Source: Agelas oroides
Lineage: Eukaryota > Porifera > Demospongiae > Agelasida > Agelasidae
Length of the DNA: 64,000 nucleotides
Direction: 5' to 3'
Assembly: GCA_949130485.1 (NCBI GenBank)
Contig: OX422191.1
Location: 685,441-749,440 of the forward strand
The notes beneath the pieces were generated by a model that worked only from the letters and a program-made list of their open reading frames with translations, ran no database searches and was not told the origin of the DNA. The position numbers and the translations under genes were made by a program. Positions 398 through 61,661 of this stretch are shown here, piece by piece (within the stretch, counting starts at the first letter, position 1; each line of letters starts with the position of its first letter).

Positions 398-481
398 CCT
401 CAGTTGGAACCAGATCTCAGATGAAGGTGCTCGTGAATTGGCTGCAGCGTTACAAGTGAACCAGAGCCTTCAGACGCTAGA
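398..481 (+). CDS. LRR exon 1
   Basis: 84 bp, open, donor GTGAG at 482. The variable LRR core reads LSWNQISDEG. Its segmental-duplicate partner is the exon at 25158 (core LSGNQISAKG), so the pair differ in the core. Confidence 0.85.
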
Positions 482-3400
482 GTGAGTCCAGCCATTCCTA
501 GACTTGTGTTATATTGAGGACTTGATGATGCCACAGAAACTCACTAGTATTCCGGTTTTTGTGTAAAGACCTAACACTGTTTTACTCCCTATCTTGATTT
601 CCATGGTGAGCATCTTCTACAATATCTCACATGATATGATATGGCTTCACGTCAGTAAAGCTGGTTTGAAGCTTTTAGTTTAGTGAACACAGTTATCATT
701 TTCTTCTGAACACATACTCACATGGAACCACTAGCCTCATTCCCAGGCCACCACCCAGATATTTGTTACTTGCAGTATGAAACTTAAGAATCAGTCTCAA
801 CTATACTCGATGAGGCCCATGAGAGAACTCGGGCTACTGACGTCCTCACGGGGTTGATCAAAGAGGTGACTATGTGCGTAACTCCTAGGCCTGCTTTTCA
901 AGGTTTATACGTGTACATGCCAGAACTGGTAGATTAGTAGCATCAAGAGAAAAGAAAGCACAAAGCCAGCTCAACTCTAGTTCAATGACTGTTCAAAAGC
1001 CTAATATTTGAGTAAAAGTCCTCTCGCTCATGCTCGCCCCAATTAAGAGCTCCTCATTTGTGACCAAAACTGAATGTGCATGTCAAAATATTGATCACAA
1101 TCTATAATCTGTTTCGAGCAAAGTAACCACACCCCAAGATGCTTATAAGAGGTAATGTTTGCTGGTAGGCCACTGCTACTTAGCTACAAGACCTGAAGTA
1201 GGTTTTAGAGATCAGGATTTTGTGCTGCCTGAAGTGGAAAGCCTTAGAGTTCAGAGTTTTGTGGTTTCTTAAAAAAGCTTTACCCTCAAGGGAGGAGCCA
1301 GACATCAGTTTATCAATTGTGAATAGCGAGGCACGCCTTCACCTCCTTTATACTCGCGCGCATTACGCACGTAATATCAGCCCGAAGCGCGGTAGCGCAC
1401 TCAATACACACAATGATTTTATACGTAGTATATTGAACGTGTGACGTCACGTAAGCGGAAAAATCGCTACGGGAGTCGCTGTGAGGGGTGACAGTGGTGT
1501 AGCTGGTGAAGGGAGAGTTGTTGGTGTACCAAAGTTTCATTCCTGGGGTAAGTGCACTATGCCATTAACGAATATCAACTCAGATTGGATGTTCAACGCT
1601 TCCTCCGGCCTGTGTATTATATTGGGTTAGTTATACGAGCAAAGTAACCGCACCCCAAGATGCTCACGGATGGTTAGAGCTGCAGGCTTACCTTGGCTCG
1701 AACATTAGAGTTCAGTGCTATACGTAGGTAAAATCTGTTAGTAGGCTTTAGGAGAAAAAAAGTTCACTGCTACTTAGCTACAAGACCTGAAGTAGAAATC
1801 AGGGTTTTGTGCTGAAGTAGGAAGACTTAGAGTTCCGAGTTTTGTGGCTTCTTGAAAAAAGCATAACCCTCAAAGGAGGAGCCAGACAACAGTTTAGCAA
1901 ATCGTGAACAGCGAGGCACTCCTTCACCTGCTTTATACTCGCGCATTAAGGTGGCGGGTAAATCTGCCATATATAAAATGTCTCATCTTACTAGTTGTGC
2001 AATCACTTACAGCCAAACTTGATATTCAAGTACTGTATGGCAAGTACTATCTGTGTAACAAATCTTGATACAATGCTACAAAGAATAGCGCGGAGAGCAG
2101 TGGTTGAGTTTTACAATTTTTCATCACGTTTCACTCGCACGGTATGAGAGCCACATACTCCATTCTTGGCGAGGAGAAAGTTCGACAGTCGCTAGAGGGG
2201 GCTACATAGAGTTTTGGTCATAAGCTGTAAAGCTTAACGGATGGCGAGTTGAAACTGTTATTGGAAAGTCACTTTTTGTGGCGTTTCGCGGCACGATCTC
2301 TCCCTGGCGTTTGTTAATCACGAATACTTTACGTTACCCCCTCGACTAACCACTGGAGAAGCTGTTTATAGTAAGGAGAGTTGCTAAAGTCGTTTACCTG
2401 ATTCACGAAGCGTCACGAAAAAAATGCATCCATGGCCTTCTTGGTGGGTGTGGCCATTGGTGTACGGCGATCGACGACGTAGAAACTTCTCAGGCCTTCC
2501 TTCATGCTTTTGTTGCTTGTAGTACGCCTGTACGGCTACGTAGCTCTTCGATAAGCTACTGAAGCAGCTGCTACAGTGATTTGCTTCGTTCAAGAAGACA
2601 AACCAGCTGTACAATGGTGGGCGTAAACGGGAAACAATTATTTCGCTTGCGTGGATAGCTTACCCGCCACCTTAAGTGCGGTAGCGCGCTCAATACACGC
2701 AATGATTTTATACGTAGGTATATTGAACGTGTGACGTCACGTAAGCGGAAAAATCGCTTCCGGAGTCGGTGTGAGGGGTGACAGTGGTGTAGCTGGTGAA
2801 GGGAGAGTTGTTGGTGTACCAAAGTTTCATTCCTGGGGTAAGTGCACCATGCCGTTAACGAATATCAACTCAGATTGGATGTTCAACGCTTCCTCCGGCC
2901 TGTGTATTATATTAGTTAATTATTTACGCTGTCCTTTAAGTTGCATCTTGGGGTGTAACTTGGGTTTTGATTCTTCCTCGTTGTTTGTGTATACAGTAAT
3001 GGAACCACTTACCTTTCTTTTTGTTCACTTCTGCAGCCTCAGGAACAATAAGATCTCAGCTGATGGTGTGTTGGTACTGGCTGGAGCTTTGATAGTGAAC
3101 AAGAACCTTAAACTAGAGTGAGTCCGGCTACTTATGTACTACAGGCACATGGATGGTTCCATGTACCCTGTCCCATGATCACGACTCTAATAGGAGCTCT
3201 CTATTTGTGACCAACAACTGAATGTGTATGTCAAAGTCTTATGTGTTTGACCACAAGTAAACATTATTTGCCGAGCCCCTTAACATGAGGCAAGTAATCG
3301 TGCAGTGGTGAGATCACATGCATGTGTCTGTAATGCTTTAGGAATTGAAGATTTGTCAGTATATGACATATGTTTATATGCATAGACTGTGCACACGCAC

Positions 3401-6400
3401 ATGCACTCTGAATTGGATTCATATCGTCGGAGGTAACTAGCCTCGTACCCAGGCTCCTCCCCATGCCGAAAAGTGGGGAGAGAGCCTGGACGATCTGATC
3501 ACGTGCCCCGTGATGTACTATGTGTGGTCTTATGTGTGGTTTTGATAATCGAATTATTGCCCACGCTGTCTGTACTCAGCATTATAAGCGGTACTCGTGT
3601 GTTGTAGCCGTTGTTGGAGTTCTGGATCAGTGGATGTCGCTGAGACTACAGACGGGCACTGGAAGGCTGTTTCACTGTTATCTAGCTAGCTGGTAAGCAG
3701 TGTAGCTTCTACTCTACACCTCACTGGAAGACAGTCGCTTTAGCGACGTTCACAGCGCTGGCTACCGCTCACTATGACAGCATGCTAGGAGTATACAGAA
3801 CTCACAGCTGTTCACAGAGGCCTTCCAAAGACTCCTTGCTGACACAGTGAGCAATATCCAACGCTGTCAACGTCGATAAGGCGACTGCCTCCTGCGTCGT
3901 TTGAACGAAACGACGTCGTGGCAGCGTAAAACTTGGCGCTACGGTAGAAGCTATAGTTGAAATATCATACTGGGAGCTTGAGTCTAGCTAGATAATAGTG
4001 AACAGCCTTTCAGTGCCAATCTGTAGTCTCAGCGACATACAACAACGGCCGTGTCAGTGCTTATAACGCTGAGTACGGACTGCGTGGGCAATAATTCGAT
4101 TATCAAAACCACGCATAAAACCACACATAGTACGTCACGGGGCACGTGATCAGATCGTCCAGGCTCTCTCCCCGCTTTTCGGCATGGGGAGGAGCCTGGG
4201 TACGAGGCTAGGAGGTACCTTAGTGGAGACACACACAGTGGTACAGGAAGTGAAGAAGAGAGAGCTCGAAAGAGGCAGGTAGAGGCAGGGAAGAGGAGCT
4301 AGGAGTGTGTGTCACCAAGAGACTAGCATATGGTGATCTCAGCTTCTTTTAGCTATAAAACAGGGAGAGGCATACACGGGAGTCTCTTTGACATAGGTAC
4401 ATACCGTATTCTCTCTAAAATAGTGGACACTTTAATTGTCCGGATACCTCAATTATGAATTTTTTGTCTCTCTAATTAAACCAGACAGCAGAAAAATTGA
4501 GGGATTTTCCCTCTCTAATACATGCGAACACTAGCGATGTCACTGATGCTGAAATCATTTGTTGGAGTGTTGGCTAGTCAAACGAAGCTCTACAGAGTGA
4601 AACAAGGAACAGAGGGAGGCTCACAAGGTTATTTCAACAAACTGTATGCTCTGAAATGATTTGTTATCCGTTTACAGAGAACGCTTACCAGCTGTGTGTC
4701 GTGTTTGTCATCTTGCGTTGATAGCAAGGTGCAACTCCGACATTTATGAAGCCCAAGTACTGCTGTACCTGTTAGTGTTGTGCTTCTGTGCTTCTGCTTG
4801 TTGGTGTTGAAACACCCCCAATAAGTTGTTTTTATGATCAAGGCGATCGACAATGACCTTGGCTTCGGTCGCTATGCTTCACCACTTCGAAAGGTGATGC
4901 TCAGTACGTGTCTTTGTGGGTCCTGACCGATGCACACAGAAGGTGGCAATAGTTGGACATGGTAGTTCACAAAAACTGGTGCTATAAAACTCTCTAGTTC
5001 ACACCAGACACTTCTGTTAAAAAATTAATAACTCTCTAAAATTTCCAGACACTCCCATTTTGAATTATATTTTGCTGTCCAATATTTTAGAGAGAATATG
5101 GTAAATATACTACAATACATACATGAAACAATAACGTACACTGCCTGTTTCGAGCCCTTCTTCAATTTAGTGGTTCCTGTACCTCCGTGTGCACACTCTC
5201 AACACGAGTAGTGACTTCATCTGCACATGCATATACCTAGTCATGAGTTAGGTGCCTTTGTTTTGATTCTTCCCCATATGTAAGTTTATAATATTATGAT
5301 TTTTGAACTATGTGCCTGGCATTTTTGTTCTCTAACATTCTGCAGCCTCAGTAAGAATGGAATTTCATATGAACGTGTGTGTGTACTGGTGGAAGCTTTA
5401 AAAGTGAACCAGAGCCATCAGAAGCTTAAGCTAAAGTAAGTTCAGCCATTCATGTCCTATACTTTCAATTGGTATACACAGAGCCTGTAGGCCTAAGGTT
5501 ATTTCCGGGCCTGGGCTGCAATAGTAGGGAGGGCATGTGACACTTGCAAAACATTTGTGTGTACTAGCATGGATCGATGGTTGTGGGCTTCCCTGACTCA
5601 TGATCACGACTGGAATAAGAGTTCATCATTTGTGACCAACAACTGAGTGTGCATATCAAATTATATTGTTTATGCTGGGGCGTAGACAACTTTTGAGAAG
5701 TGGGGGAGCTTAGCCTCTAGGATCGAGTTTGTTGCTCGTAAACGAGAGTCGAATTCATATATTTGGACACTTCTAAGCTTTGATCTTTGTATGTCTAACA
5801 CTGCTTATAACCTGAAAGCTGTTTTTACCTCTCTTGCTTTTCTAAATTTTGGACGTCCTTTTGCGGTAACTGCTTGTACACATAGTAACATGAGCTTAAA
5901 ATCTGGGGGGGCTTCAGTCCCCCAGCCCCCCCACCCCCCCCTTGCCTACACCCTTGTTATGACCTCAACAAATCATGACCCTTGGTTTTTGAATCTTCCT
6001 TGTATACTGTTGTTAAGTATATAATTGTGTCCACGAACCCTTTTTGAAGCACTTCCCTTTATTTGTTGTCTAACCTCCTGCAGCCTCAGTGGGAATGAGA
6101 TAACAGACAAAGGTGCTTGTGCAATCGCCACAGCTTTACGAGTGAACCAGAGCCTTCAGGAGCTAAGGTGAGCTTTGTCAACATTGACCAAATGGGAATT
6201 GACCAAATGGGAATTGACGAAGTGGGAAGTTGACCAAATGGGAATTGACGAAGTGGGAATTGACAAAGTGGGAATTGACGAAGTGGGAATAAACCCAACC
6301 ATTCATGTCCTACTTCTTAAGAAGTGTACACTGGTACTGCAGTGGTAGTTGTGTACACTCTGTATCTCAACTAGTGTAGCATTACAGGAGTCAAATGAAA

Positions 6401-9400
6401 GGCACTGAAGTGCCAAACCCTCGGCGCAGCAGTGCATGTGATTGTACTTGTGTGTTAACTAGAATCGATCACTGTCTCGTGAACAATAGTATCATGACGT
6501 TTGCTCTCGAGTTGATATGGCATGCCTTTCGATATCAATTCATTCGTAGCATCCAAAACCATAATGATGAATAGACCTTTCCCACTAACATCAAAATATG
6601 TGCGGAATACGTGACGTCACGTCTGGGGTGCCTCGGAAGGCTTGCTGGGGCGAATTCTCCATTGCTATATACGGGAACGTAGCCTACGTTCAGACGGCTG
6701 CTGCCTTCGCGTACAGGGGAATCCCAAGCTGCCTAGACGCCGACCTAGAGTTCCAGCATCGGCCTATTCAACAGTGGTAGTTTGAACTCCGTGCGTCTTT
6801 TTTCGACACTGCCGTGGAGCTGTTAGATGAACGTGTCTTGTGTACGCCCAACGGTTTGTGGTGGCTACTAAGTGTCTACAAACGTCATAAGTTCTGGTCA
6901 AGTATAACTTGCAGCAGTGTGCACCAACCCAAAGTGTCTGTCGTCCAGTGTTGTCCTACATAGCATAGCTTTGCGCTGCCTGACATCCGCGAAAGCGTGC
7001 GAGTAAGCTATGTACTCGAGAAAAGCTATCTAGTAGCTACATGTAGATACTCGAAGCTAAGCTAGGTAGTGACTGGTAAGTAGTACGTATAAATGTACAT
7101 TTTAGACATTTTAACTAGCTCTACAGCTCCGCTCGCCGATAGTAATCCCTCCTGTACCTGGAGGTAGCCAACCGCTCTGTCCAGCGTCAAACAAGTCGGA
7201 CGGAGTTCGAACTACCACTGTTGAAAAGGCCGATGCTGGAACTCTGGATCAGTGTCGAGGCAGCTCGGTATTTCCCCTGTACACGAACCAGCAACCGTCT
7301 GAATGTAGGCCATGTTCTCATATAATAACAATGGAGAATTCGCCCCAGCAGGCCTTCTGAGGCACCCCAGACGTGACGTCACGTATACTGCATTCCATTG
7401 CGTCTTAATGGGAAAGGTCTATTACAGGTACAGCAGCTTTACACTGCGGGCATACCTTTGTTGGAGGCATACTTACTGCCAATGGCCAATAATCGAACTG
7501 GCAAGGAACGTCTCTCCCAAGAACAAAATGGCCACTAGCCACGTGGTCCCAGATTCATACGCATGCACGTTTTCCGTGGAGTAAAAAATGGCCGACTTAT
7601 CATGTCGCCGTACCAACAGGAAACGCTCTAGCTTCGCAACAAAGCATTTTCAGAGAAAATCGCTTAAAATTTCGACCTTCATCCGCCACTGAGAAGGTTA
7701 GTATCGTTTGTGGCACGAATAATCACGTGAAAAGTGAGATGTTGAGTAACAGACACACACACAGACCAACTACTGTAACCCTCGCTGTGCATGCGCGCTG
7801 AGGGTTAATTACTACAAGGTGCACTACAGTTGAAATTGCCAATAGGTTAAATTTTTGAATTACAACTTTAAAAATGTCACAGCAAGAAAAGGTTTTAGCA
7901 AGTTTGGGATGATCTAAAGTGTGCCTTTAAAATTATATGTGTAAACCTACATTCTTAAGAGGTGTATACTGAGAGGTATCATTCCCAGGCCTGTGCTGAT
8001 ACCGGTATTGTCCCAGGCAAGTGCCCATGGGTGCTCGCAGCTCAAGCACCAAAAATTGAGGGTGGGCGGTTACACAGAGGTGGTGCTTGAATGATCCAAC
8101 TATCTCCGGCATGCGTGATCATGAGGTAGAAATGCAGAGAGGAGGAGGAGATTAACCAGTTTATGAGTGCAGCGAGAGGCTGAACAACGTAGGCACAACC
8201 TCATTCGTGCCTCCGTCGATCAGCCTCTCGTTGTTGCTTCCTCTGGGAATCATCCTCTTCTCAACAGTGTCACTGCACCCGTATCCTGGTTAATCTACGA
8301 GTACAGTGACAGCATTGAGCAGAGGATGATTCCCGGAGGCAGTAATGACGAGAGGCTGACCAACGTAGGCACACAAAGTAGCTCAATCATTATCTTGCTT
8401 CCCACGAGCCTCTCCTGCATGCATTCACGTATGCCCTTGTACAGCTACTAGTGGAGCACCCCAGGTGACTTATTAGTGTGCACAGTATCCGGTAGAGTGC
8501 CTGACTGGACTCCCCAGCTGGTTAGACCCCGCCCTCTGCTTATATTAAAATCACCAGTGACTGTAACACAGGGAGTACTCCTCTACTTGACTAGCTGACA
8601 CACAGTGTCTGATACTGTGTGTCAGTAGTGAGGTACCGTGAGACCAAATATACCCTTACACAAAATGAAGAGGTTTGTTTAACCACCTCTCATCTCTTCT
8701 TCTCTGACATTCTACAGCCTCAGTGTGAACCAGATTTCAGACGAAGGTGCTCATGAATTGGCTGCCGCGTTGCAAGTGAACCAGAGCCTTCAGACACTAA
8801 AGTGAGTCTAACCCTTCATGTCCTACTTCTTAAGAGGTGTACAATGGGACTGCAGCAATGGTTGTGTACTCTCTCAACTGGTGTAGCAGTACCAGTGCAG
8901 TGCATGGTTGGTTTTGGTTGGAGCTATTGAAATGCATGGTACAGTTTAGCCTCGTACCAAGGTTCTCAGTGGGCGGGGAAAACGAGAGCCTGGTATGAAC
9001 TGTTTGCGCATGTGCTTAATTTCTCAGAAATCTTGGGAGATCGGGAACTATCGTGTTATATCTGTACAACCGTGACTTTCATAACATGTACTTACTACTA
9101 CACCGCCCGCACATTTTCTGACCAATCATGAAGCTCTTTTGATTGAGGGAGGGACAGCCATCTTAGTGATGCAGCATTTTCTGGTTACTTCCTCTGGACA
9201 ATATTCTTGTCCCCCCACCACTCCCTCTTTCTTGAGACTGTGAGCACTGGTAATTTTAAGGGTGGGGCTAGGAGTGCACAAGTTCCCCTGTTATCATTGT
9301 GATTACATGTGTGCACACGTACACATAGCTAGGTCCTGCAATATTCTAATTGTTGCATCCTCTCTGTGACATGACATCATATATACCATGATACTGTTAC

Positions 9401-12400
9401 TATAGTGGAGCACCCCAAGTGAGTTATCTGTGGCTACAGTGTCCGGTGGAGCACTGACTTAACTTCCCGTGTGGTTAGACTCCGCCCTCTGCTTATATTA
9501 ATTCACACTAAAATCACCAGTGACTGTAACACAGGGAGCAGTCCTCTACTTGACTAGCTGACACACAGTGTCTGATACTGTGTGTCAGTAGTGAGGTACC
9601 GAGACCAAATATACCTTACACAAAGTGAAGAGGTTTGTTGAACAACCTCTCATCTCTTGTTCTCTGACATTCTGCAGCCTCAGGCACAACCAGATCTCAG
9701 ATGAAGGAGCTCGTGAATTGGCTGCAGCGTTGCAAGTGAACCAGAGCCTTCAGACAATAGAGTGAGTCCAGCCCTTCATGTCCTACTTCTTAAGAGGTGT
9801 ACACTGCGACTGCAGCAAGGGTTGTGTACACTCTCAACTGGTGCAGCAGTACCAGTGCAGTACATGGTTGGTTTTGGTTGAAGCTATTGAAATGCATGGT
9901 ACAGTTTAGCCTCGTACCAAGGCTCTCAGTGGGCGGGGAAAACGAGAGCCTGGTATCATCTGTTTGCACATGCGCTTAATTTCTCAGAAATCTTGGGAGA
10001 TCGGGAACTATCGTGTTATGTTATATATAAACCATGGTAAGGAGGTGTATATGGCGAATATACTACCCGAGACCGAGGTCAGAGGAAGTTTGCAGTAGAT
10101 ATACCCCGAGCCGCAGGCGAGGGGTATATCTACTGCAAACTTCCGATGACCGAGGTCGAGGGTAGTATGATTCGCCATATACACCTCCTTACCATGGTTT
10201 ATATAATATATACTTATGGTGCGTGGGCGGATTACGTAAGCGGTTCCGTTTCCGGTATTGCATTTTTGAATTTGAATCGACGAGGCTAGTGTCGTTGTGC
10301 GTTGCTGCTGCTTTTTGACTGGAAAAGGATGAGTTTTAGTACGCTTAGGCGACCAAAAGACCCCCGAAACATCTCTGCAGTCAAGGCAGAGTCTGAGCCA
10401 TGACGATGGGCCTTTCGCTCGTGTCGACTTGAAACCAAGATGCTACTGGCGCTCGGCCATGATGCCGATGGGCAGCTAGCTTGCTACCTAGCCGCTCTTG
10501 GTCGGAAGCTGGCGATCATGAAACAATGGTTCGAGCTGGCAGTAGAACGCCCAGCCTCACAGTTCAGCTAGCAGTTGTCCTAGCGCTATCCCTGGATCAA
10601 CCGCCTGGCGAGTGAAGTATTATCGTCAGCATCCGTCAGGGTAGTGCCAGCTGCCGGAGAGCAGTAGCGTCTGTCCAGCCGTGCGTGGTTCAACACACCA
10701 AGTAAGCACTATTGCTGCACGAATAACCTGGCAAGTTTGTGCGACGCTTTGGCTGTTGTGCTAATACTGAGTACGGGGGCTCTATAGTGCTGGCAATGGC
10801 TCTTGAGGACTGGGGGGAATTGGCCATTCCATTGCAAAACAAAAACCGTTTCTTTGTGCTGCAGTTATGACTGATTGCCAAATATACACCCCTGACTCAG
10901 CAATATACTCCCTTGCGGTTGAAATATACACTCCTGACTCAGCAATATACTCCCTGCGGTCGCAGCTGCGCGGTCTATATGCCATATATGACCCCATGCG
11001 GCACCTTTCATCCGCCCACGCACCATAGTATATATCTGTATATACAACCGTGACTTTCATAACGTGTAGTTACTACTACACCACCCACACATTTTCTGAC
11101 CAATGATGAAGCTCTTTTGATTGAGGGAGGAACAGCCATCTTAGTGATGCAGCATTTTCTGGTTACTTCCTCTGGACAATATTCTTGTCCCCCCACCACT
11201 CCCTCTTTCTTGAGACTGTGAGCACTGGTTGGGGCGAGCCTGAGGGAGCCCCACACTAGCGGGACTGCATTGCAGAAGTGTGTGTGTATACGTACGTACG
11301 TACGTACGTGCTTGCTTGCGGCCCAGAGGAGGGAGGACATGACGTCACAATGTAGCGACAATTAGTGCGCTCTGATGACATTCCAAGAGCAAGAATCGTG
11401 GATGAAGCTACAAGGATTGCTCTATGGGCTAAGTCACGATGGGCGCATAGAGTTTTCGACTAAGTTGAAGCTATCTGGCTAGTCAAAATTGGTTAATATG
11501 ACTCACCTCGCAGGCTAAGCTTGTAAGTTGCCAGTTTGACGCAAGGTGAGTCACAGGAGGCCAGTTTAGGTGCCAAACATCTTCAACCTTGTCGAAAACC
11601 ACGTACGCCCATTGTGCCCATTGCGACTTTGTCCATATAGTCGTTCGTTTAGCTTGCATCCACACTTCTTGGCCTTGGAATGTCAGTTAATAGTCGTCAT
11701 CACGTGATCGCGTCCCACCTCCTCTGCTTGCGGCCATATACCGTAAATTTTAAATGAGCGCATTCAAATATTTCACGAAGACCGATCTCGTGTACGAAGC
11801 ATGTTATGTGTGCGCTACTGCCCGAGTGCAGCATCGGAGGCCCGGAGCGAAGACAACTGAAGGTAAAGCACGCAACGTTCTTCTGGTTTGTACTTCTTCC
11901 GACCATCAACGGCAGGCCGCTCTCACAGGCGGTACAAATATGGACAGTGGAGTTGATGTCGCTTCAGGTAAAAGCCAGTCATGCATGGCATGAACGGCAC
12001 TCACAAACGCCAGAAAATCAGCTCATGATTTAGCTTAGTCCATGCATGTATAGCTACATTAGCTGCCCTGGCTGGAGAAATGGCTGGCATACGTGACACT
12101 AAGCTATCTCGGGTGAGGACTTAGCTACTTATGCGTTTTGAAATATACCACGACAAATTAGTAAACCAGCAGTGTGCTGCTCGTTCAGGCTCGCCCCAAG
12201 ATGATGAATCATCCCACTAGTAATTTTAAGGGTGGGGCTAGGAGTGCACCAATTCCCCTGTTACCATTGTGATTACATGTGTGCACATGTTACACATAGC
12301 TAGGTCCTGCATTATTCTAATTGTTGCATCCTCTCTGTGGCATGACATCATATATACCATGATACTGTTACTATAGTGGAGAACCCCAGTGAGTTGTTAT

Positions 12401-24400: not shown

Positions 24401-27400
24401 GAAGCTATTGAAATGCATGGTACAGTTTAGCCTCGTACCAAGGTTCTCAGTGGGCGGCGAAAATAAGAGCCTGGTATCCACTGTTTGCGCATGCACTTAA
24501 TTTCTCAAAAATCTTGGGAGATCAGGAACTATCGTGTTATATCTGTACAACCGTGACTTTCATGACATGTACTTACTACTACACCGCCCACACATTTTCT
24601 GACCAATGATGAAGCTCTTTTGATTGAGGGAGGGACAGCCATCTTAGTGATGCAGCATTTTCTGGTTACTTCCTCTGGACAATATTCTTGTCCTCCCACC
24701 ACTCCCTCTTTCTTGAGACTGTGAGCACTGGTAATTTTAAGGGTGGGGCTAGGAGTGCACAAGTTCCCCTGTTACCATTGTGATTACATGTGTGCACACG
24801 TACACATAGCTAGGTCCTGCATTATTCTAATTGTTGCATCCTCTCTTTGACTGACATCATATATACCATGATACTGTTACTACAGTGGAGCACCCCAAGT
24901 GAGTTATCTGTGTCTACAGTGTCCGGTGGAGCACTGACTTAACTTCCCGTGTGGTTAGACCCCGCCCTCTGCTTATATTAATTCACGCTAAAATCACCAG
25001 TGACTGTAACACAGGGAGTATACTCCTCTACTTGACTAGCTGACACACAGTGTCTGATACTGTGTGTCAGTAGTGAGGTACCGAGACCAAATATACCTTA
25101 CACAAAGTGAAGGTTTGTTGAACCACCTCTCATTTCTTGTTCTCTGACATTCTGCAGCCTCAGTGGGAACCAGATCTCAGCCAAAGGTGCTCGTGAATTG
25201 GCTGCAGTGTTGCAAGTGAACCAGAGCCTTCAGACACTAGAGTGAGTCCAGCCATTCCTAGACTTGTGTTAAAATATTGAGGACTTGATGATGCCATAGA
25301 CACTCACTAGTATGCCGGTTTTTGAATATACACTCTCCCCACTCTTGCCAGTTTGTGTAAACACCGAACAGTGTTTAACTCCCTATTTTCATTTCCATGG
25401 TGGGTTTATCTTCTATCTCACATGATATGATGTGGCTTCACGTCAGTAAAGCTGATTTTGAAGCTTTTAGTCAAGTGAACACAGTTATCATTTTCTCCTG
25501 AACACGTACTCACATGGAACCACTAGCCTCATTCACAGGCCACCACCCAGATATTTGTTACTTGCAGTATGAAACTTAAGCATTGTCTCACATTACCACT
25601 GAAGATGCAAATTACAGTAGTGTACTAGGTGTACATATTCGCAGTATATGCCTCGCGCGCGTGCATCTTACCTTTGAACCGACACGTGACATTACATTCA
25701 GTAGGCGTGGCATGTTGACAGTTGGCCATGTGCAAGAGCAGTGTGAACAGTGCGGTCAGTGTGAGCTGTTGTTGCTCGGCCTGTAGCCTGGCGGATCTAG
25801 GGGATGGTCGGCGTTCCTCAAGACAGCCATACGCTTTCTTCGTTTCGCTAGTCGCAGCTCCTCTCTCTCGCTCGCACTCATCAATCCGGACTTCACGGGG
25901 TGGACCCTTTGTCGTTGCTTTCGTTTTCGCACCAGTCTCCTACCTCTTCCTCGCTCTCCTCACAATTCTCCACTATTTTGACGTCGCAACAATGAGACCG
26001 CTCGCGCCCTACAGCGCTGGATATGATAAACTTACGTAAGTGTACACGTTTTGTCTTTCCTAAACGGGACGGATGTTTGCGCACAAACCACACCTTTGCA
26101 TTCCTGAAGCGTGACAAATTGCATTCCTGAAGCGTGACAAATTGCATTCCTAAAGCGGGACGGAAGTCAAAGCCACACCCCACCAACCGAGAACGCACTG
26201 CAAGATTAGTAGTCTCACGCCAAGGCGCTCGGCAACAAGTACCAACAGACACTGGAAATTTATTGTGGTACATGACTGGCAATGTTACTGCTCTTCAGGA
26301 TGACAAAATCATTGTGAATATAATTAGTTGACCCCACATTGAACCAGGGGGCGTATAGTTGAGACTGATTTAATATTTGAGTAAAAGTCCTCTCGCTCAT
26401 GCTCGCCCCAATTAAGAGCTCCTCATTTGTGACCAAAACTGAATGTGCATATCAAAATATTGATCGCAATTAATCTATAATCTGTTTCTTGTGTTTTGAT
26501 TCTTCCTCGTTGTTTGTGTATACAGTCATGGAACCACTTACCTTTCTTTTTTGTTCTCTGATGTTCTGCAGCCTCAGGAACAATAAGATCTCAGCTGATG
26601 GTGTGTTGGTACTGGCTGGAGCTTTGATAGTGAACAAGAACCTTGAACTAGAGTGAGTCCGGCTACTTATGTACTACAGGCACATGGATGGTTCCATGCA
26701 CCCTGACCCATGATCATGATTCTAATTGGAGCTCTCTATTTGTGACCAACAACTGAATGTGTATGTCAAAGTATTATGTGTTTGACCACAAGGAAACATT
26801 ATTTGCCGAGCCCCTTAACATGAGACAAGTAATCGTGCAGTGGTGAGATCACATGCATACATATATGTAATGCTTTAGGAATTGAAGATTTGTCGGTATA
26901 TGACATATGTTTATATGCATAGACTGTGCACACGCACATACACTCTGAATTGGATTCATATTGTAGGAGGTAACTTAGTGGAGACACACACAGTGGTACA
27001 GGAAGTGAAGAAGAGAGAGCTCGAAAGAGGCAGGTAGAGGCAGGGAAGAGGAGCTACATGTAGGAGTGTGGGTCACCAAGAGACTAGCATATGGTGATCT
27101 CAGCTTCTTTTAGCTATAAAACAGGGAGAGGCATACACGGGAGTCTCTTTGACATAGGTACATACTGTATTCTCTCTAAAATAGCAGACACTTTAATTGT
27201 CCAGACACCTCAATTATGAATTTTTTGTCTCTCTAATTAAACCGGACAGCAGAAAAATTGAGGGATTTTCCCTCTCTAATACATGCAAACACTAGCGATG
27301 TCACTGATGCTGAAATCGTTTGTCGGAGTGTTGGCTAGTCAAACGAAGCTCTACAGAGTGAAACAAGGAACAGAGAGAGGCTCATAAGGTTATTTCAACA

Positions 27401-30400
27401 AATGGTATGTTCTGAAATGATGTGTTATCCGTTTACAAAGAACGCTTACCAGCTGTGTGTCGTGTTTGCCATCTTTCGTTGATAGCAAGGTGCAACTCCG
27501 ACATTTATGAAGCCCAAGTACCGCTGTGCCTGTTAGTGTTGTGCTTCTGTTTATTGGTGTTGAAACGCCCCCAATAAGTTGTTTTTATGATCAAGGTGAT
27601 TGACAATGACCTTTGCTTCGGTCGCTGTGCTTCACCACTTTGAAAGGTGATGCTCAGTATACGTGTCTTTGTGTGTCCTGACCGATGCACACAGAAGGCG
27701 GCAATAGTTGGACATGGTAACTCACAAAAAAAGCACGCTGAAACTGGTGCTATAAAACTCTGTAGTTCACACCAGACACTTACGTTCAAAAATTAATAAC
27801 TCTCTAAAATTTCCGGACACTCCCATTTTTAATTATTTTTTGCTGTCCAATATTTTCGAGAGAATATGGTAAATATACTACAAGACCACTCTGAATTAAT
27901 TGTTTGTTTGAACTAACCCGACTGACCTGAAGTTTTAAAAGTGCCTCATAGTTGGGTAACAATTGTTATATGCACCGCCTCAAACATTTTAGCACAAGTA
28001 GGATAAATTGTTTATTTAGGCTACCGTTTCAGAACCAAGCTGCCACGTGTTGTAGTTATTAATGGGCCTAAATAAAATATTACCCACCCGACCGACCGAC
28101 CCAACATTCTTGTGGTCATGTTAGTTCAAACAAACAATTAATTCAGAATGGCCCAATGCATACATAAAACAATAACGTACACTGCCTGTTTCGAGCCCTT
28201 CTTCAATTTGGTGGTTCCTGTACCTGTGTGTGCACACTCTCAACACGAGTAGTGACTTCATCTGCAAATGCATATATACCTAGTCATGAGTTAGGTTCCT
28301 TTGTTTTTGATTCTTCCTCATATGTAAGTTTATAATATTATGATTTTTGAACTATGTGCCTGGCATTTTTGTTCTCTAACATTCTGCAGCCTCAGTAAGA
28401 ACGGAATCTCAGATGAATGTGTGTGTGTACTGGTTGAAGCTTTAAAAGTGAACCAGAGCCATCAGAAGCTTAAGCTAAAGTAAGTTCAGCCATTCATGTC
28501 CTATACTTTCAATAGGTATACACAGAGCCTGTAGGCCTAAGGTTATTTCTGGGCCTGGGCTGCAATATTAGGGAGGGCATGGGACACTTGCAAAACATTT
28601 GTGTATACTAGCATGGATCGATGGTTGTGTGCTTCCCTGACTCATGATCACGACTGGAATAAGAGTTCATCATTTGTGACCAACAAATGAGTGTGCATAT
28701 CAAATTATATTGTTTATGCAGGGGCGTAGACAACTTTTGAGAAGTGGGGGGGGCTTAGCCTCTAGGATCGAGTTTGTTGCACGTAAACGAGAGTCGAATT
28801 CATATATTTGGTGAGTCCAGCCATTCATGTTCTACTTGTTAAGAAGTGTACACTGGTACTGCAGTGATAGTTGTGTACACTCTATATCTCAACTAGCGTA
28901 CCATTACAGGAGTCAAATGAAAGGCACAGAAGTGCCAAACCCTCGGCGCAGCAGTGCATGTGATTGTACTTGTGTGTTAACTAGAACCGATCACTGTCTC
29001 GTGAACAATAGTATCATGACGTTTGCTCTCGAGTTGATGCGCAGCGAGGGTTAATTACTACAAGGTGCAGTACAGTGTTGTTTGGTTTTAGTTGAAGGTC
29101 TCCAACTGCTACAGTTGAAATTGCCGATGGGTTAAATTTTTGAATTACAACTGAGGTAAAAAATGTCACAGTAAAGTTTGAAGGGGGCTTTAAAATTATA
29201 TCCTAAGAGGTGTATACTTAGACTGTAGTGTCATTCTCAGGCCTGTGCTGATACCGTATTTTCCCGGGAAAGTGCCCATGGGCGCTCGCAGCTCAAGCAC
29301 CAAAATTGAGGGTGGGCGGTTACACGAAGGAGGTGCTTGAATGGTCCAACTATCTCCGGCATGTGTGATCATGAATGCAGAGAGGAGGAGGAGATTAACC
29401 AGGGTACGAGTGCAGCGAGAGGCTGAACAACGTAGGCACAACCTCATTCGTGCCTCTGTTGGTCAGCCTCTCATTGTTGCTGCCTCTGGGAATCATCCTC
29501 TTCTCAACAGTGTCACTGCACCCATATCATGGTTAATCTACAAGTACAGTGACACCATTGAGCAGAGGATGATTCCAGGAGGCAGTAATGACGAGAGGCT
29601 GACCAACGTAGGCACACAAAGTAGCTTAATCAATATCTCGCTTCCCACGAGCCTCTCCTGCATGCATTCATGTATGCCCTTGTACGGCCACTAGTGGAGC
29701 ACCCCAGGTGAATTATTAGGGTGTACAGTATCCGGTAGAGTGCCTGACTGAACTCCCCGGCTGGTTAGACCCCGCCCTCTGCTTATATTAAAATCACCAG
29801 CGACTGTAACACAGGGAGCAGTCCTCTACTTGACTAGCTGACACACAGTGTCTGATACTGTGTGTCAGTAGTGAGGTATTGAGACCAAATATACCTTACA
29901 CAAAGTGAAGAGGTTTGTTGAACCACCTCTCATCTCTTGTTCTCTGACATTCTGCAGCCTCAGTCGGAACCAGATCTCAGATGAAGGTGCTCGTGAATTA
30001 GCTGCAGCGTTGCAAGTGAACCAGAGCCTTCAGACACTAGAGTGAGTCCAACCCTTCATGTCCTACTTCTTAAGAGGCGTACACTGGGACTGCAGCAGTG
30101 GTTGTGTACACTCTCAACTGGTGTAGCAGTACCAGTGCAGTACATGGTTGGTTTTGGTTGAAGCTATTGAAATGCATGGTACAATTTAGCCTCGTACCAA
30201 AATTGTCAGTGGGCGGGAAAAATGAAAGCCTGCTATCAACTGTTTGCGCATGCGCAGAAATCTTGGGAGATCGGGAACTATCGTGTTATATCTGTACAAC
30301 CGTGACTTTCATAACATGTACTTACTACTACACCACCCACACATTTTCTGACCAATGATGAAGCTCTTTTGATTGGGGGAGGGACAGCCATCTTAGTGAT

Positions 30401-33400
30401 GCAGCATTGTCTGGTTACTTCCTCTGGACAATATTCTTGTCCCCCCACCACTCCCTCTTTCTTGAGACTGTGAGCACTGGTAATTTTAAGGGTGGGGCTA
30501 GGAGTGCACCAGTTCCCCTGTTACCATTGTGATTACATGTGTGCACACGTACACATAGCTAGGTCCTGCATTATTCTAATTGTTGCATCCTCTCTGTGAC
30601 TGACATCATATATACCATGATACTGTTACTATAGTGGAGCACCCCAAGTGAGTTATCTGTGTCTACAGTGTCCGTTGGAGCACTGACTTAACTTCCCATG
30701 TGGTTAGACCCCGCCCTCTGCTTATATTAATTCATGCTAAAATCACCAGTGACTGTAACACAGGGAGTACTCCTCTACTTGACTAGCTTACACACAGTGT
30801 CTGATACTGTGTGTCAGTAGAGAGGTATCGAGTCCAAATATACCTTGCACAAAGTGAAGAGGTTTGTTGAACCACCTCTCATCTCTTGTTCTCTGACATT
30901 CTGCAGCCTCAGTCGGAACCAGATCTCAGATGAAGGTGCTCGTCAATTGGCTGCAGTGTTGCAAGTGAACCAGAGCCTTCAGACGCTAAAGTGAGTCCAG
31001 CCCTTCATGTCCTACTTCTTAAGAGGTGTACACTGTGACTGCAGCAATGGTTGTGTACACTCGTAACTGGTGTAGCAGTACCAGTGCAGTACATGGTTGG
31101 TTTTGGTTGAAGCTATTGAAATGCACGGTACAGTTTAGCCTCGTACCAAGGTTCTCAGTGGGCGGGGAAAATAAGAGCCTGGTATCCGCTGTTTGCGCAT
31201 GCGCTTAATTTCTCGGAAATCTTGGGATATCGGGAACTATCACGTTGTATCTGTACAACCGTGACTTTCATAACGTGTTCTTACTACTACACCGCCCACA
31301 CATTTTGATTGAGGGAGGGACAGCCATATTAGTGATGCAGCATTTTCTGGTTACTTCCTCTGGACAATATTCTTGTCCCCCCACCACTCCCTCTTTCTTG
31401 AGACTGTGAGCACTGGTAATTTTAAGGGTGGGGCTAGGAGTGCACCAGTTCCCCTGTTACCATTGCGATTACATGTGTGCACACGTACACATAGCTAGGT
31501 CCTGCATTATTCTAATTGTTGCATCCTCTCTGTGACATGACATCATATATACCATGATACTGTTACTATAGTGGAGCACCCCAAGTGAGTTATCTGTGTC
31601 TACATTGTCCGGTGGAGCACTGACTTAACTTCCTGTGTGGTTAGATCCCGCCCTCTGCTTTTATTAATTCATGTTAAAATCACCAGTGACTGTAACACAG
31701 GAAGTACTCCTCTACTTGACTAGCTGAAACACAGTGTCTGATACTGTGTGTCAGTAGAGAGGTATCGAGTCCAAATATACCTTACACAAAGTGAAGAGGT
31801 TTGTTGAACCACCTCTCATCTCTTGTTCTCTGACATTCTGCAGCCTCAGTGGGAACAAGATCTCAGATGAAGGTGCTCGTGAATTGGCTGCAGCGTTGCA
31901 AGTGAACCAGAGCCTTCAGACACTAAAGTGAGTCCAATCCTTCATGTCCTAGTTCTTAAGAGGTGTACACTGGGACTGCAGCAATGGTTATGTACACCCG
32001 TAACTGGTGTAGCAGTACCAGTGCAGTACATGGTTGGTTTTGGTTGAAGCTATTGAAATGCATGGTACAGTTTAGCCTCGTACCAAGGTTCTCAGTGGGC
32101 GGGGAAAATAAGAGCCTGGTATCCACTGTTTGTGCATGCGCTTAATTTCTCAGAAATCTTGGGAGATCGGGAACTATCGCGTTGTATCTGTACAACCGTG
32201 ACTTTCATAACGTGTACTTACTACTACACCGCCCACACATTTTCTGACCAATGATGAAGCTCTTTTGATTGAGGGAGGGACAGCCATCTTAGTGATGCAG
32301 CATTTTCTGGTTACTTCCTCTGGACAATATTCTTGTCCCCCCACCACTCCCTCTTTCTTGAGACTGTGAGCACTGGTAATTTTAAGAGTGGGGCTAGAAG
32401 TGCACCAGTTCCCCTGTTACCATTGTGATTACATGTGTGTGCACACGTACACATAGCTAGGTCCTGCATTATTCTAATTGTTGCATCGTCTCTGTGACAT
32501 GACATCATATATACCATGATACTGTTACTATAGTGGAGCATCCCAAGTGAGTTATATGTGTCTACAGTGTCCGGGGGAGCACTGACTTAACTTCCCGTGT
32601 GGTTAGACCCCGCCCTCTGCTTATATTAATTCTCGCTAAAATCACCAGTGACTGTAACACAGGGAGTACTCCTCTACTTGACTAGCTGACACACAGTGTC
32701 TGATACTGTGTGTCAGTAGTGAGGTACCGCGAGACCAAATATACCTTACACAAAGTGAAGAGGTTTGTTGAACCACATCTCATCACTTGTTCTCTGATAT
32801 TCTGCAGCCTCATTGGGAACCAGATCACAGATGAAGGTGCTCGTGAATTGGCTGTAGCTCTACGAGTGAACCAGAGCCTTCAGACACTAGAGTGAGTCCA
32901 GCCCTTCATGTCCTACTTCTTAAGTGGTGCACACTGAGACTGCAGCAATGGTTGTGTACACTCTCAACTGGTGTAGCAGTACCAGTGCAGTACATGGTTG
33001 GTTTTGGTTGAAGCTATTGAAATGCATGGTACAGTTTAGCCTCGTACCAAGGTTCTCTGTGGGCGGGGAAAATAAGAGCCTGGTATCCACTGTTTGCACA
33101 TGCGCTTAATTTCTCAGAAATCTTGGGAGATCGGGAACTATCGCGTTGTATCTGTACAACCGTGACTTTCATAATGTGTACTTACTACTACGCCGCCCAC
33201 ACATTTTCTGACCAATAATGAAGCTCTTTTGATTGATGGAGGGACAGCCATCTTAGTGATGCAGCATTTTTTGGTTACTTCTTCTGGACAATATTCTTGT
33301 CCCCCCACCACTCCCTCTTTCTTGAGACTGTGAGCACTGGTAATTTTAAGGGTGGGGCTAGGAGTGCACCAGTTCCCCTGTTACCATTGTGATTACATGT

Positions 33401-36400
33401 GTGCACACGTACACATAGCATTATTCTAATTGTTGCATCCTCTCTGTGACTGACATCATATATACCATGATACTGTTACTATAGTGGAGCACCCCAAGTG
33501 AGTTATCTGTGTCTACAGTGTCCGGTGGAGCACTGACTTAACTTACCGTGTGGTTAGACCCCGCCCTCTGCTTATATTAATTCTCGCTAAAATTACCAGT
33601 GACTGTAACACAGGGAGTACTCCTCTACTTGACTAGCTGACACACAGTGTCTGATACTGTGTGTCAGTAGTGAGGTACCACGAGACCAAATATACCTTAC
33701 ACAAAGTGAAGAGGTTTGTTGAACCACCTCTCATCTCTTGTTCTCTGATATTCTGCAGCCTCAGTGAGAACCAGATCTCAGACGAAGGTGCTCGTGAATT
33801 GGCTACAGTGTTGCAAGTGAACCAGAGCCTTCAGACACTAGAGTGAGTCCAGCCCTTCATGTCCTACTTCTTAAGAGGTGTACACTGGTACTGCAGCAAT
33901 GGTTGTGTACACTCTCAACTGGTGTAGCAGTACAGCAGTACCAGTGCAGTACATGGTTGGTTTTGGTTGAAGCTATTGAAATGCATGGTACAGTTTAGCC
34001 TCGTACCAAGGTTCTCAGTGCGCGGGGAAAAGGAGAGCCTGGTATCCACTGTTTGCGCATGGACTTCAATTCCCAGAAATCTTGGGAGATCGGGAACTAT
34101 CGTGTTATATCTGTAGAACCGTGAATTTCATAACATGTACTTACTACTACAACGCCCACACATTTTCTGACCAATAATGAAACTCATTTGATTGAGGGAG
34201 GGACAGCCATATTAGTGATGCAGCATTTTGTTGGTACTTCCTCTGGACAATATTCTTGTCCCCCCACCACTCCCTCTTTCTTGAGACTGTGAGCACTGGT
34301 AATTTTAAGGGTGGGGCTGGGGGTGCACAAGTTCCCCTGTTACCATTGGTGATTACGTGTGTGCACACGTTACACATAGCTAGGTTCTGCATTATTCTAA
34401 TTGTTGCATCCTCTCTGTGACATAACATCATATATACCATGATACTGTTACTATAGTGGAACACCCCAAGTGAGTTATCTGTGTCTACAGTGTCCGGTGG
34501 AGCACTGACTTAACTTCCCGTGTGGTTAGACCCTGCCCTCTGCTTATATTAACTCACGCTAAATCACCAGTGACTGTAACACAGGGAGTGCTCCTCTACT
34601 TGACTAGCTGACACACGGTGTCTGATACTGTGTGTAAGTAGTGAAGTATTGAGACCAAATATACCTTACACAAAATGGAAAGTTTTGTTGAACCACCTCT
34701 CATCTCTTGTTCTCTGACATTATGCAGCCTCAGTTGGAACCAGATCTCAGATGAAGGTGCTCGTGAATTAGCTGTAGCGTTGCAAGTGAACCAGAGCCTT
34801 CAGACAATAGAGTGAGTCCACCCCTTCATGTCCTACTCCTTAAGAGGTGTACACTGGTACTGCAGCAATGGTTGTGTACACTCTCAACTGGTGTAGCAGT
34901 ACCAGTGCAGTACATGGTTGGTTTTGGTTGAAGCTATTGAAATTCATGGTACAGTTTAGCCTCGTACCAAGGTTCTCAGTGGGCGGGGAAAAGGAGAGCC
35001 TTGTATCAACTGTTTGTGCAGTGCTTAATTTCTCAGAAATCTTGGGAGATCGGGAGCTATCACATTGTATCTGTACAACCGTGACTTTCATAACGTGTAC
35101 TTACTACTACACTGCCCACACATTTTCTGACCAATGATGAAGCTCTTTTGATCGTTCGTACTCCTGCACTCTTTAGCGCCCTCCACTGGTAGGTATTTCT
35201 GATATGAGTCTTAAGACAGTACAGGTAGCTTCCATTTTGGACGTTTGCTGGTGAAATATGACAGCTACTGGAAAGTTTGTGTGATACGAAGTGTTACCGT
35301 TTGTCATAGACTGTAATTTAGCAATAGATGATAGTAAATCAGGGCATTGTAGTGCTAGTTGTAATGTAGTTGTCGCTCTTTGCTGCACGGTACTATTAGT
35401 AGAGTTCATACTTGCTAAAACGTACGTTACACTATCAACCATGTGGATGCATATTACGTTTTCCCCTCCCACTATTGCTTGAACATGTGTACAGCAGTGG
35501 ATAATTATGTGCATGCACATGCACAAACAGTAGATATCAGGCTCTTTTTCTCCCCGCCCACCAAGAGGCTGAATTCGAGGCTAGGTACAATTAATATCGT
35601 CAAACGTCAGATTTTGAATTCACAATCCAGGTAGAATAGTCAGAGATTTCAAAGTGTGCTTTTATGAATACACACAAAGTGATGTATAGAACTATGAGTA
35701 AATTATAAATAACAATTAATTGCAAAAATAATCATGCTATACATAGCAGTGTATGAAGCATTTTGAAAGTGATGCACTCCAGTACAGCTATGGGGGTGGG
35801 GGTCTGTGGGGTTTGGGGGTGCACAGGCCCCCCTCAGTCTCCATCAAGACTATGACATACATACACCACGTACATCCTGCATTACTCTAATTGATGCACC
35901 CAGGATAATTCACAAAGACCTAATAACTTCACAGGGAGTACAGTGGAACCTCTCTTAAAGGACACCCCTGAAAAAAGGACACCAGGTTAAATCTGGACAC
36001 CTTACCGAGTCCCAACTTTATATAAATACATATTATGCTCCCCCTGAAATAAGGACACCTCACTAATCAGGACAAGTATTTTGGTCCCAAGGGTGTCCGT
36101 ATTAGAGAGGTTCCACTGTAGTCCTCCACTTCACTAACTAACAAACTGACACACAGTGTCTGATACTTGATACTGCGTCTCAGTAGTGAGGTACCGAGAC
36201 CAAATATACCTTACACAAAGTGAAGAGGTTTGTTGAACCACCTCTCATCTGTTGTTTTCTGACATTCTGCAGCCTCAGTGGGAACAAGATCTCAGATGAA
36301 GGTGCTTGTGAATTGGCTGCAGCGTTGCAAGTGAACCAGAGCCTTCAGACACTAGAGTGAGTTGAAAGTGATGCACTCCAGTACAGCTATGGGGGTGGGG

Positions 36401-49600: not shown

Positions 49601-49624
49601 GATTGATTCCCCTTCCCATTCATC

Positions 49625-50035
49625 TCCTCTCATCTTTATCCTTCCCTCTCCCCTCCCCCCTCTCGTCTTCATCCTTCCCTCTCCCCTCCCCCCTCTCGTC
49701 TTCATCCTTCCCTCTCCCCTCCCTCCTCTCGTCTTCATCCTTCCCTCTCCCCTCCCTCCTCTCGTCTTCATCCTTCCCTCTCCCCTCCCTCCTCTCGTCT
49801 TCATCCTTCCCTCTCCCCTCCCTCCTCTCGTCTTCATCCTTCCCTCTCCCCTCCCTCCTCTCATCTTCATCCTTCCCTCTCCCCTCCCTCCTCTCGGCTT
49901 CATCCTTCCCTCTCCCCTCCCTCCTCTCGTCTTCATCCTTCCCCCTCCCCTCCCTCCTCTCGTCTTCATCCTTCCCCCTCCCCTCCCTCCTCTCATCTTC
50001 ATCCTTCCCTCTCTCCTCCCTCCTCTCATCTTCTC
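49625..50035. repeat. 33-bp minisatellite, about 12 copies
   Basis: Unit CTCTCGTCTTCATCCTTCCC plus CTCTCCCCTCCCT; copies differ by single bases. Because 33 is a multiple of 3 it gives false open frames on both strands. Confidence 0.9.
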
Positions 50036-59859: not shown

Positions 59860-60055
59860 TCCTGAATTGGATTTCCGGATTTCAGTGGATTTCTGGATTT
59901 CAGAGTGGATTTCTGGATTTCAGATTGGATTTCTGGATTTCAGAGTGGATTTCTGGATTTCAGATTGGATTTCTGGATTTCATAGTGGATTTCTGGATTT
60001 CTGGATCTCACAGTGGATTTCTGGATTTCAGTTTGGATTTCTGCCGACGGTGTAC
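59860..60055. repeat. GGATTTCTGGATTTCAGA minisatellite, ~10 units
   Basis: Same family as 57335; ends at GTACGAGATTTCTTTCGTG, about 70 bp before the second RPE exon 1. Confidence 0.9.
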
Positions 60056-60378
60056 GAGATTTCTTTCGTGACGGACCCCTCGGGCTGCATGCAACCCTTG
60101 TATCGTTTGCAGCTCAGAAGTCGAGAATGTGTACATGCAAGTGTCGGATAGGCCCGTCCATCCTGAATGCAGACCTCTCCTGTCTCGCTGAGGAGTGCCA
60201 GAAGATGTTGGACAGCGGAGCAGACTACCTGTGAGACGTCATGGACGGGTGAGCTTACGTGAAGCATAAGTCCTACTGCGTACAGTCTGTTTTGGTTCAG
60301 TCCTGTGCGTGTGTGGGATGGAGAGTAACAACAGGAGAATATAGTTTCTGTTCCCGGCTCTCTCCATATGATTGTATT

Positions 60379-61007: not shown

Positions 61008-61661
61008 GTATTGCAAGTAAAAAGAGCTGGGGGTGGGACTGAGAACATATAGTACTCTCTACCAGAGGCATGTTTCTGAATCAAGGGTATAGGGTCGGGC
61101 AGGGGTTTCATTTCCGGTTTGTTACAAAACAGTGCGGGAGAGGTCATAGGTCACTGTACACCTATTTCTCCATTATTTGCTAGAATGAGGCTACCTGGAG
61201 AACATGTGCCCTTCCTCCCGGGTATCCTCCTCCCACATGCAATCTTAATGTTCTGTTGGTCATTGCAGACATTTTGTACCTAACCTTACATTTGGAGCTC
61301 CTGTTGTGAAATGTCTGCGGAAGAGAATACCAGATGCTTTCTTTGGTAAGAAACTTTGACTGAACACAGAATTACGGAACTCACGATGCCGGTGAACTTT
61401 GGTTTGTTCTGCCATTGACTTGTTTCTTTGCTCAGATATTCACATGATGGTTTCAGAGCCAGAAAAGGTGAGGAGGATTGCCTTCAGTTTTAGCTGTATA
61501 TTCTGTCAGATGTTCATGATCAAGCTGGTTTTGTTCTAGCAACTAACCTGAAGAATGTTGTTAGTGTACCCCGGACAATCCCTTCCCACGCCCATGCATT
61601 GTTTCAAGTAATATTAAACCTCATGTCTCCAGCTTTCCACTGCTTGCAGTAGCTGACAATA

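Follow-up and report, generated by a model that had tools for sequence, protein, structure and literature searches.

In brown algae, ROCO genes carry single leucine-rich repeats (LRRs) on exons that are all of phase 2, with exon shuffling and alternative splicing of LRR exons, and the relevant passages of PMC11378527 describe diversifying selection at four sites referred to as concave. Fungal NLRs hold near-identical repeats, thought to evolve in concert, with a few hypervariable codons under diversifying selection on the binding face (parts of PMC4986451 and PMC12222747), and a section of the former describes animal NLRs as triggered by relatively invariant microbial patterns. In plant highly variable NLRs (hvNLRs), as presented in excerpts of PMC8226289, high-entropy residues lie at LRR positions such as 3, 5, 7, 8 and 10 and are taken as binding sites; bulky aromatic residues, tryptophan included, are frequent among them. 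In the present study we describe an array of single-LRR exons in a 64,000-nucleotide window of the genome of the sponge Agelas oroides (C9:685441-749440, C9 being contig OX422191.1; assembly of 259 Mb in 141 contigs). The array belongs to a predicted Death-NACHT-LRR receptor gene. In our view natural selection probably maintains diversity at one codon of the repeat, named x8, as well as at x5 and possibly x10, since x8 would lie on the predicted ligand-contacting face of the LRR horseshoe.

By the window we mean the whole stretch that was analysed. It contains 27 single-LRR exons on the + strand at positions 398-36356, where an earlier note made from the letters alone had placed them; 19 are of a core type and the remaining 8 of other kinds, and an AG acceptor precedes every one. 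The core exon has 84 bp and encodes 28 aa of the pattern LQTL-[D/N]-L-S-x-N-x-I-S-D-E-G-A-R-E-L-A-A-A-L-Q-V-N-Q-S. The first base of each LRR exon completes a codon split by the preceding intron; in the LRR numbering L1..L4.L6..N9.I11, x5 denotes this split codon, x8 the one that follows CTC-AGT and x10 the one that follows Asn. The lengths of all 27 exons are multiples of three (81, 84, 90 or 93 bp) and the joined exons give one frame without a stop, so that any subset of them could be spliced in frame.

Among the systems compared, the closest relatives are the brown-algal ROCO LRR-exon genes and the fungal repeat-diversifying NLRs. One LRR per exon and a uniform phase (27 of 27 exons in the window) are common to the algal genes, as far as they are covered in the passages cited, and the sponge array, but the algal exons have 72 bp and encode 23-aa LRRs together with ROC-COR, in contrast to 84 bp and NACHT here. 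By our own register the algal selected sites 14, 16, 18 and 19 correspond to x3, x5, x7 and x8, whereas in the sponge x3 and x7 are mostly fixed and x8 is dominant. The Tetrahymena LRR arrays, in the portions of PMC6564038 that concern them, similarly consist of tandem exons of uniform length with phase 2 introns, expanded by shuffling, although these exons have 90 bp (30 aa) instead of the 84 bp (28 aa) of the sponge core; those portions contain no per-codon selection and no link to NACHT, and the terms 'positive selection' and 'hypervariable' are absent from the main text. With the fungal NLRs, as partly set out in the papers cited, the sponge array shares a hypervariable codon for which counting methods indicate diversifying selection. 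Fungal repeats are WD40, ANK or TPR and vary in number between alleles, with no LRR motifs in the part of PMC4986451 concerned. In the sponge every repeat is an LRR with an exon to itself, and the mean identity of the repeats (83.7% for the 19 core exons of the window, 84.0% for all 66 core exons surveyed) lies narrowly below the fungal cut-off of >85% over at least 100 aa given there. Plant hvNLRs carry NB-ARC, in contrast to the animal NACHT of the sponge gene, and are defined, in the excerpts of PMC8226289, by 10 or more positions whose entropy between alleles is over 1.5 bits; in the sponge only x8 of the 28 positions exceeds 1.5 bits, and it does so across repeat units of one genome.

The sequence surveyed amounted to some 334 kb. 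It comprised a 214-kb portion that contains the window, 80 kb from the far end of the gene cluster described below and past it, and four 10-kb stretches in between. About 213 kb of this lies within the cluster (0.657-1.63 Mb) and covers 22% of it. An nhmmer search gave 103 exons with an alignable start, matches beginning later in the profile being excluded. The core set consists of the 66 exons that fit the core pattern (58 distinct), all with AG/GT borders and an open frame (66/66); among the 37 non-core exons, two core-like ones with one pattern residue changed and one truncated exon were kept out of it. Flanks of 450 bp on both sides were present for 65 of the 66 core units. The exons are similar enough for introns, silent sites and sister exon types to act as built-in controls. 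Choosing units by similar introns lowers intron diversity, and pairs were therefore picked on the similarity of one flank while intron divergence was taken from the other. Of the four sets of disjoint pairs the first two were picked on the upstream and the last two on the downstream flank, and the larger sets overlap the smaller; pairs with an unalignable measured flank were removed (6/18, 8/24, 1/11 and 5/21). An initial comparison gave diversities of 0.093 for the exon and 0.047 for the intron but used 26 units selected because their introns were similar, and in early pair tests x8 differed in 13/20, 15/20 and 18/23 pairs; both were biased and gave way to the flank-split pairs. Whole-exon pN/pS (nonsynonymous over synonymous differences per site), which was 0.94, was set aside as a test, as it masks x8. 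Selection was inferred by counting methods and not by codon-model likelihood tests, in one assembly and between repeat units.

The x8 codon is exceptional. The 66 core exons show 11 codons and 9 amino acids at x8 (R 19, W 14, G 12, E 8, Q 4, N 3, V 2, H 2, L 2), amounting to 2.71 bits, while all 27 other positions stay below 1.4 bits, the next being x5 (1.38) and codon 8 (1.18). Pairwise diversity at the first base of x8 is 0.715 (65 units), a value reached by none of the 890 alignable intron columns, so the hypervariability of the codon after CTC-AGT that the earlier note had claimed holds. In the disjoint pairs x8 differs in 7/12 against 1.01 expected from the intron (p=1.6e-5), in 9/16 against 1.47 (p=2.9e-6), in 5/10 against 1.07 (p=0.0022) and in 11/16 against 2.06 (p=3.7e-7), which is a 4.7-6.9-fold excess across the four sets; with the unalignable-flank pairs put back the counts are 13/18, 17/24, 6/11 and 14/21. 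Parsimony on the intron trees of 26 units assigns 24 or 23 steps to codon 3 (x8), and none of 448 intron triplets matches this on either side. In the same 26 units x8 is the sole exon site showing four bases. Set against the silent sites of the exon, the ratio of pN at x8 to exon pS is 6.0 (95% bootstrap interval 4.8-7.2), and the exon without x8 has a pN/pS of 0.7 (0.55-0.86), meaning net constraint. The comparison with intron divergence that the note had proposed as a check thus leaves its central claim unrefuted.

Other positions contribute less. The split codon x5 reads D 34, N 27, H 3 and Y 2 in the core exons, and its pN relative to exon pS is 1.7-2.9. At x10 the residue is Q in 54 of the 66 exons; with 0.97 bits it is not above codons 8, 13 or the split codon 28, so that the variability claimed for the residue after Asn is mild. 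Other non-consensus positions are steadier than x8 (x2 is Q in 66/66, x3 T in 65/66, x7 S in 58/66). Neighbouring codons had been described as frozen; in fact the remainder of the exon is close to the intron in divergence (0.031-0.056 vs 0.029-0.045 in disjoint pairs), and the D/N/H/Y variation of x5 had been missed. Near-identity of the flanking introns is found within families, 31 of the 65 units clustering at a mean difference of 4.6% (450 bp on each side), but the median over all unit pairs is 27%. At core codons 14, 17 and 18 the silent alternatives TTG/TTA and GCG/GCT are common and exceed most intron columns of the 26-unit set in diversity, for which CpG and exchange between exons may be part of the reason.

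The LRR exons of the window, all on the + strand, are as follows.

398..481, + strand: core LRR exon, x8 = W (codon TGG at 405-407)
3037..3117, + strand: LRNN-type LRR exon, non-core control type
5346..5435, + strand: LSKNG-type LRR exon, non-core
6084..6167, + strand: ITDKG-type LRR exon, non-core
8718..8801, + strand: core LRR exon, x8 = V (GTG)
9678..9761, + strand: core LRR exon, x8 = H (CAC)
12651..12734, + strand: core LRR exon, x8 = H (CAC)
13611..13694, + strand: core LRR exon, x8 = G, x10 = E
14368..14451, + strand: core LRR exon, x8 = R (AGG), x10 = D
15326..15409, + strand: core LRR exon, x8 = G
16284..16367, + strand: core LRR exon, x8 = R, x10 = K
17203..17286, + strand: core LRR exon, x8 = G, with Ser in place of the conserved Asn
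18161..18244, + strand: core LRR exon, x8 = G, x10 = K
19121..19213, + strand: delta-type LRR exon, donor position provisional
21139..21222, + strand: epsilon-type LRR exon, control, x8 codon identical in 4/4 copies
22257..22340, + strand: zeta-type LRR exon, control, x8 codon identical in 5/5 copies
24200..24283, + strand: core LRR exon, x8 = L (TTG)
25158..25241, + strand: core LRR exon, x8 = G
26572..26652, + strand: LRNN-type LRR exon
28390..28479, + strand: LSKNG-type LRR exon
29958..30041, + strand: core LRR exon, x8 = R
30907..30990, + strand: core LRR exon, x8 = R
31844..31927, + strand: core LRR exon, x8 = G, x10 = K
32808..32891, + strand: core LRR exon, x8 = G
33759..33842, + strand: core LRR exon, x8 = E (GAG)
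34728..34811, + strand: core LRR exon, x8 = W
36273..36356, + strand: most 3' core LRR exon found in the window, x8 = G, x10 = K

The varied set of x8 residues listed in the note is confirmed in part: in the window K and N come from non-core types (LSKNG, LSKDE, LSNK, LRNN). The same applies to G and T at x10, which belong to non-core exon types of the window and not to the core.

For the position of these residues on the fold we used a predicted structure model of the homologue P0091, which is not the protein of the window (mean pLDDT 64; 83-93 by blocks over residues 171-310). In this model the strands occupy positions 3-5 or 3-6, x5 lies in the beta-strand, x8 and x10 lie in the loop right after it, and the helix starts from position 12-13. 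The note would have been refuted by variable residues on the convex face; in this homologue model, with x5 within the strand and x8 and x10 in the ensuing loop, its interpretation is not refuted. Foldseek matches of the P0091 model include NOD2, NLRP1 and ribonuclease inhibitor. Residues Tyr430, Asp431 and Tyr433 of pig ribonuclease inhibitor are interface hotspots according to a passage of PMC9939524, and by our register, in which alternating 28/29-residue repeats are counted from alignments ending at residue 420, they would fall at x7, x8 and x10. A protein homology search with a region gave 40 proteins; the six examined are LRR proteins of other kinds or lone repeats that read on into an intron.

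Several observations weigh against selection for diversity on that face. Adjacent units differ at x8 in 36/51 cases, against 42.3 expected if the units were shuffled; neighbours thus share x8 more than shuffled units would, and there is no sign of selection for diversity within the array. The pN/pS interval of x10 (0.86-2.81) spans 1, so this codon is not individually significant. Parsimony gives the remainder of the exon 2.0 or 1.4 times the intron's number of steps per site, some of its silent sites are strongly variable, and the helix-side codons 8 and 17 vary too, partly by silent changes; the variable codons 8, 13, 16, 17 and 19 all map to the helix part, outside the strand and loop. Two non-core types, delta and LSKNG, vary at x8 as well (8/10 and 4/10 pairs). 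Furthermore, the bootstrap and the pair tests treat related units as exchangeable. The focused diversification of a sensor surface proposed in the note is accordingly upheld as regards the excess at x8 and weakened as regards x10, the helix codons and the spread of variants, part of which short exchanges explain.

The way variants spread between exons is relevant here. Once introns differ by more than 2%, the exons of a unit pair are 8-9.5% divergent, no matter if the intron difference is 4% or 33%; in the 10 closest unit pairs the figure is 1.4%. Linked pairs of exon sites (permutation p <= 0.05) make up 57% of the pairs at 1-3 bases, 12% at 4-14 and 7% beyond. A recent duplication with an offset of 4.8 kb has left identical exons in three of the four unit pairs compared; the fourth, 677218/682003 (genome coordinates), carries 7 changes in the exon, between bases 7 and 42, and another 7 in the intron, and the exon of unit 682003 is two bases from that of a third nearby unit, closer than to its own duplicate. 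The next pair at this offset, 681054/685838, has unlike introns (28%) and lies beyond the duplicated block. In the pair 1036330/1269435 the exons differ at x8 alone, by two bases, next to 19 intron changes. Both processes, short exchange and point change, appear to be at work. Such a pattern could mean that an old pool of exons was shuffled by gene conversion, the introns being homogenised later, and that x8 is just the most polymorphic old site, without continuing selection; the flat exon divergence over a wide range of intron divergence, the fading of exon linkage within about 4-15 bases and the block of changes in 677218/682003, with few intron changes and an exon matching another unit better, are in its favour. 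We nevertheless find this explanation unlikely. Exchange lifts exon diversity overall, so the key comparison is that of x8 with the silent sites of the exon, and whereas shuffling should lift every exon site to a similar extent, x8 is 6-fold above the silent ones. The restriction of four bases to x8 and the two-base difference confined to x8 in 1036330/1269435 speak in the same direction. An old pool accounts for the spread of the variants, not for which codon is affected.

Three further explanations concern the codon itself or the assembly. Position x8 is non-consensus in this LRR type and might be its freest position, drifting neutrally while the scaffold is kept; five repeats from 3 of 8 other genome loci vary at x8, and also at x3, x5, x7 and x10, but they are too few to weigh. 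Drift cannot outrun silent and intron rates, and x8 exceeds both about 5-7-fold, which contradicts relaxed constraint; x2, x3 and x7 are also non-consensus yet nearly fixed in core exons, and six sister LRR exon types (alpha, beta, epsilon, zeta, LRNN and ITDKG) hold x8 fixed, with zero differences in 25 pairs, some with introns far apart. We regard this drift as quite improbable. In control-type pairs with introns less than 8% apart x8 differs in 3/18, all of them delta and LSKNG. A mutation hotspot or directed mutator at the x8 codon, for which the CpG within AGT-CGG-AAC and the greater diversity of CpG-capable intron columns (0.135 vs 0.036) could be cited, appears very improbable: CpG transitions account for only 24 of 273 differing pairs, and base 1 of x8 shows 169 transversions and 58 transitions, opposite to the introns (7812 transitions, 5369 transversions). 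A hotspot should strike the silent base too, and this third base is G in 23/24 distinct exons with CGN/GGN boxes, so a simple hotspot does not explain x8; the adjoining Asn codon is AAC in 57/58 distinct exons, and the x8 codon of the six other exon types is constant. As for collapsed or mis-joined repeat units, long near-identical arrays do assemble poorly and two unit pairs have a flank distance of 0, but errors would not pile up at just two bases of a single codon and leave frame and splice borders undamaged in 66/66 core exons, and an artefact of this kind is hardly credible.

Under natural selection on x8, point mutation would yield new x8 states and short gene-conversion-like exchanges would carry them between units and paralogous genes, while duplication and conversion may keep the introns and the scaffold codons alike. 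A more far-reaching and rather doubtful possibility is that the 1 Mb cluster serves as a library in the germline, with single-LRR exon cassettes by the hundred that are in frame, interchangeable and diversified at the binding codon, and that each NLR gene splices varying subsets of its own 50 or so cassettes from cell to cell or between individuals; if so, it would provide a combinatorial receptor repertoire in an animal without antibodies. The pattern raises the testable questions whether diversified LRR surfaces serve specific recognition in invertebrate NLRs, and whether individual repertoires arise via alternative splicing or unequal exchange of cassettes. Zebrafish NLR-B30.2 genes, in the parts of PMC4852459 concerned, resemble the sponge genes in forming a large NLR family with NACHT on one large exon, LRRs among the single-exon domains and gene conversion. 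Their LRRs are called there not particularly variable and positive selection is placed in B30.2, whereas the diversifying signal in the sponge sits on the LRR module itself. The main text of the sponge NLR paper PMC12909245 contains no words beginning with 'exon' or 'intron' and no 'positive selection', and the open-access literature searched yielded no report of such a pattern in an animal NLR, which is a weak negative.

The LRR exon chain begins about 26 kb 5' of the window, with 23 further intact-looking exons and 2 decayed ones; the latter, at genome C9:660602 and 668249, are two copies of an LRR-like stretch with a stop codon and without an AG acceptor. On the same strand as the LRR exons lie a Death exon at 653996-654445 (about 31 kb upstream of the window; Pfam Death in this open reading frame, E=1e-6, 29.2 bits, cut-off 22.6), a large exon at 655274-657415 that matches Death a second time (E=3.5e-6, 27.5 bits) and a NACHT exon at 657439-659001 (Pfam NACHT, E=8.4e-12, 45.7 bits, cut-off 26.7). 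The NACHT exon, as read from the sequence, ends in two codon bases, which fits the one-base start of the LRR exons. Nine joined exons of the window match Pfam LRR_6 (E=2.2e-64), and they also match ribonuclease inhibitor 1dfj (E=5.4e-51) and several NLRPs. With Death, NACHT and RNI-type LRRs all present, the array is predicted to be the LRR part of a Death-NACHT-LRR immune receptor gene; if all exons join, splicing being assumed, the gene would span about 68 kb with about 50 LRRs in one transcript. When the Death exon, the large exon and the NACHT exon were scanned with Pfam, both here and in the next NACHT gene, no ROC or COR came up at E up to 0.01, and NB-ARC is not among the matches at E up to 0.01, NACHT being found instead. 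A stop-codon exon was not identified in a scan to about 66 kb in window coordinates, which was aimed at LRR-like exons only.

Related genes surround this one. Among the 83 of 246 candidates scored in a protein search, 7 NACHT exons (its own included) that are 92-100% identical, none with a stop, and 4 diverged ones (32-36%) lie in the same stretch of C9, 0.66-1.63 Mb. The best 40 of 436 candidates of a DNA search with the core exon are all on C9, at 0.68-1.61 Mb, and for NACHT, where scoring covered 105 of 314 candidates, the genome has 105 matches or more. Between two NACHT copies dN/dS is 0.42, which points to working genes. Near-identical open frames flank the NLR gene: window 60028-63255 resembles C9:623608-626829, and C9:632192-635572 resembles 754088-757468. 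Their spacing of about 122 kb suggests that the spacer was duplicated; the NACHT of the next gene is only 35% identical, so there is no simple copy of the whole gene. Just 5' of the Death exon, at C9:649017-652978, open frames resemble reverse transcriptase and a tyrosine-recombinase-like protein, which we take to be a probable retroelement.

Some minor features of the window were noted, the first two by eye. At 1948-2675 there is an insertion of about 730 bp with inverted ends (aggtggcgggtaa / ttacccgccacct), which looks like a small DNA transposon within an intron, and the sequence of about 1390-1617 recurs after it, at about 2676-2910. A second element with inverted ends (tagcctcgtacccaggctcc / ggagcctgggtacgaggcta), about 770 bp long, occupies 3438-4210 in a different intron. 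The right, LRR-free part of the window has long C/T-rich simple repeats and 33-bp tandem repeats at 44839-45160, 49624-50033 and 62932-63128.

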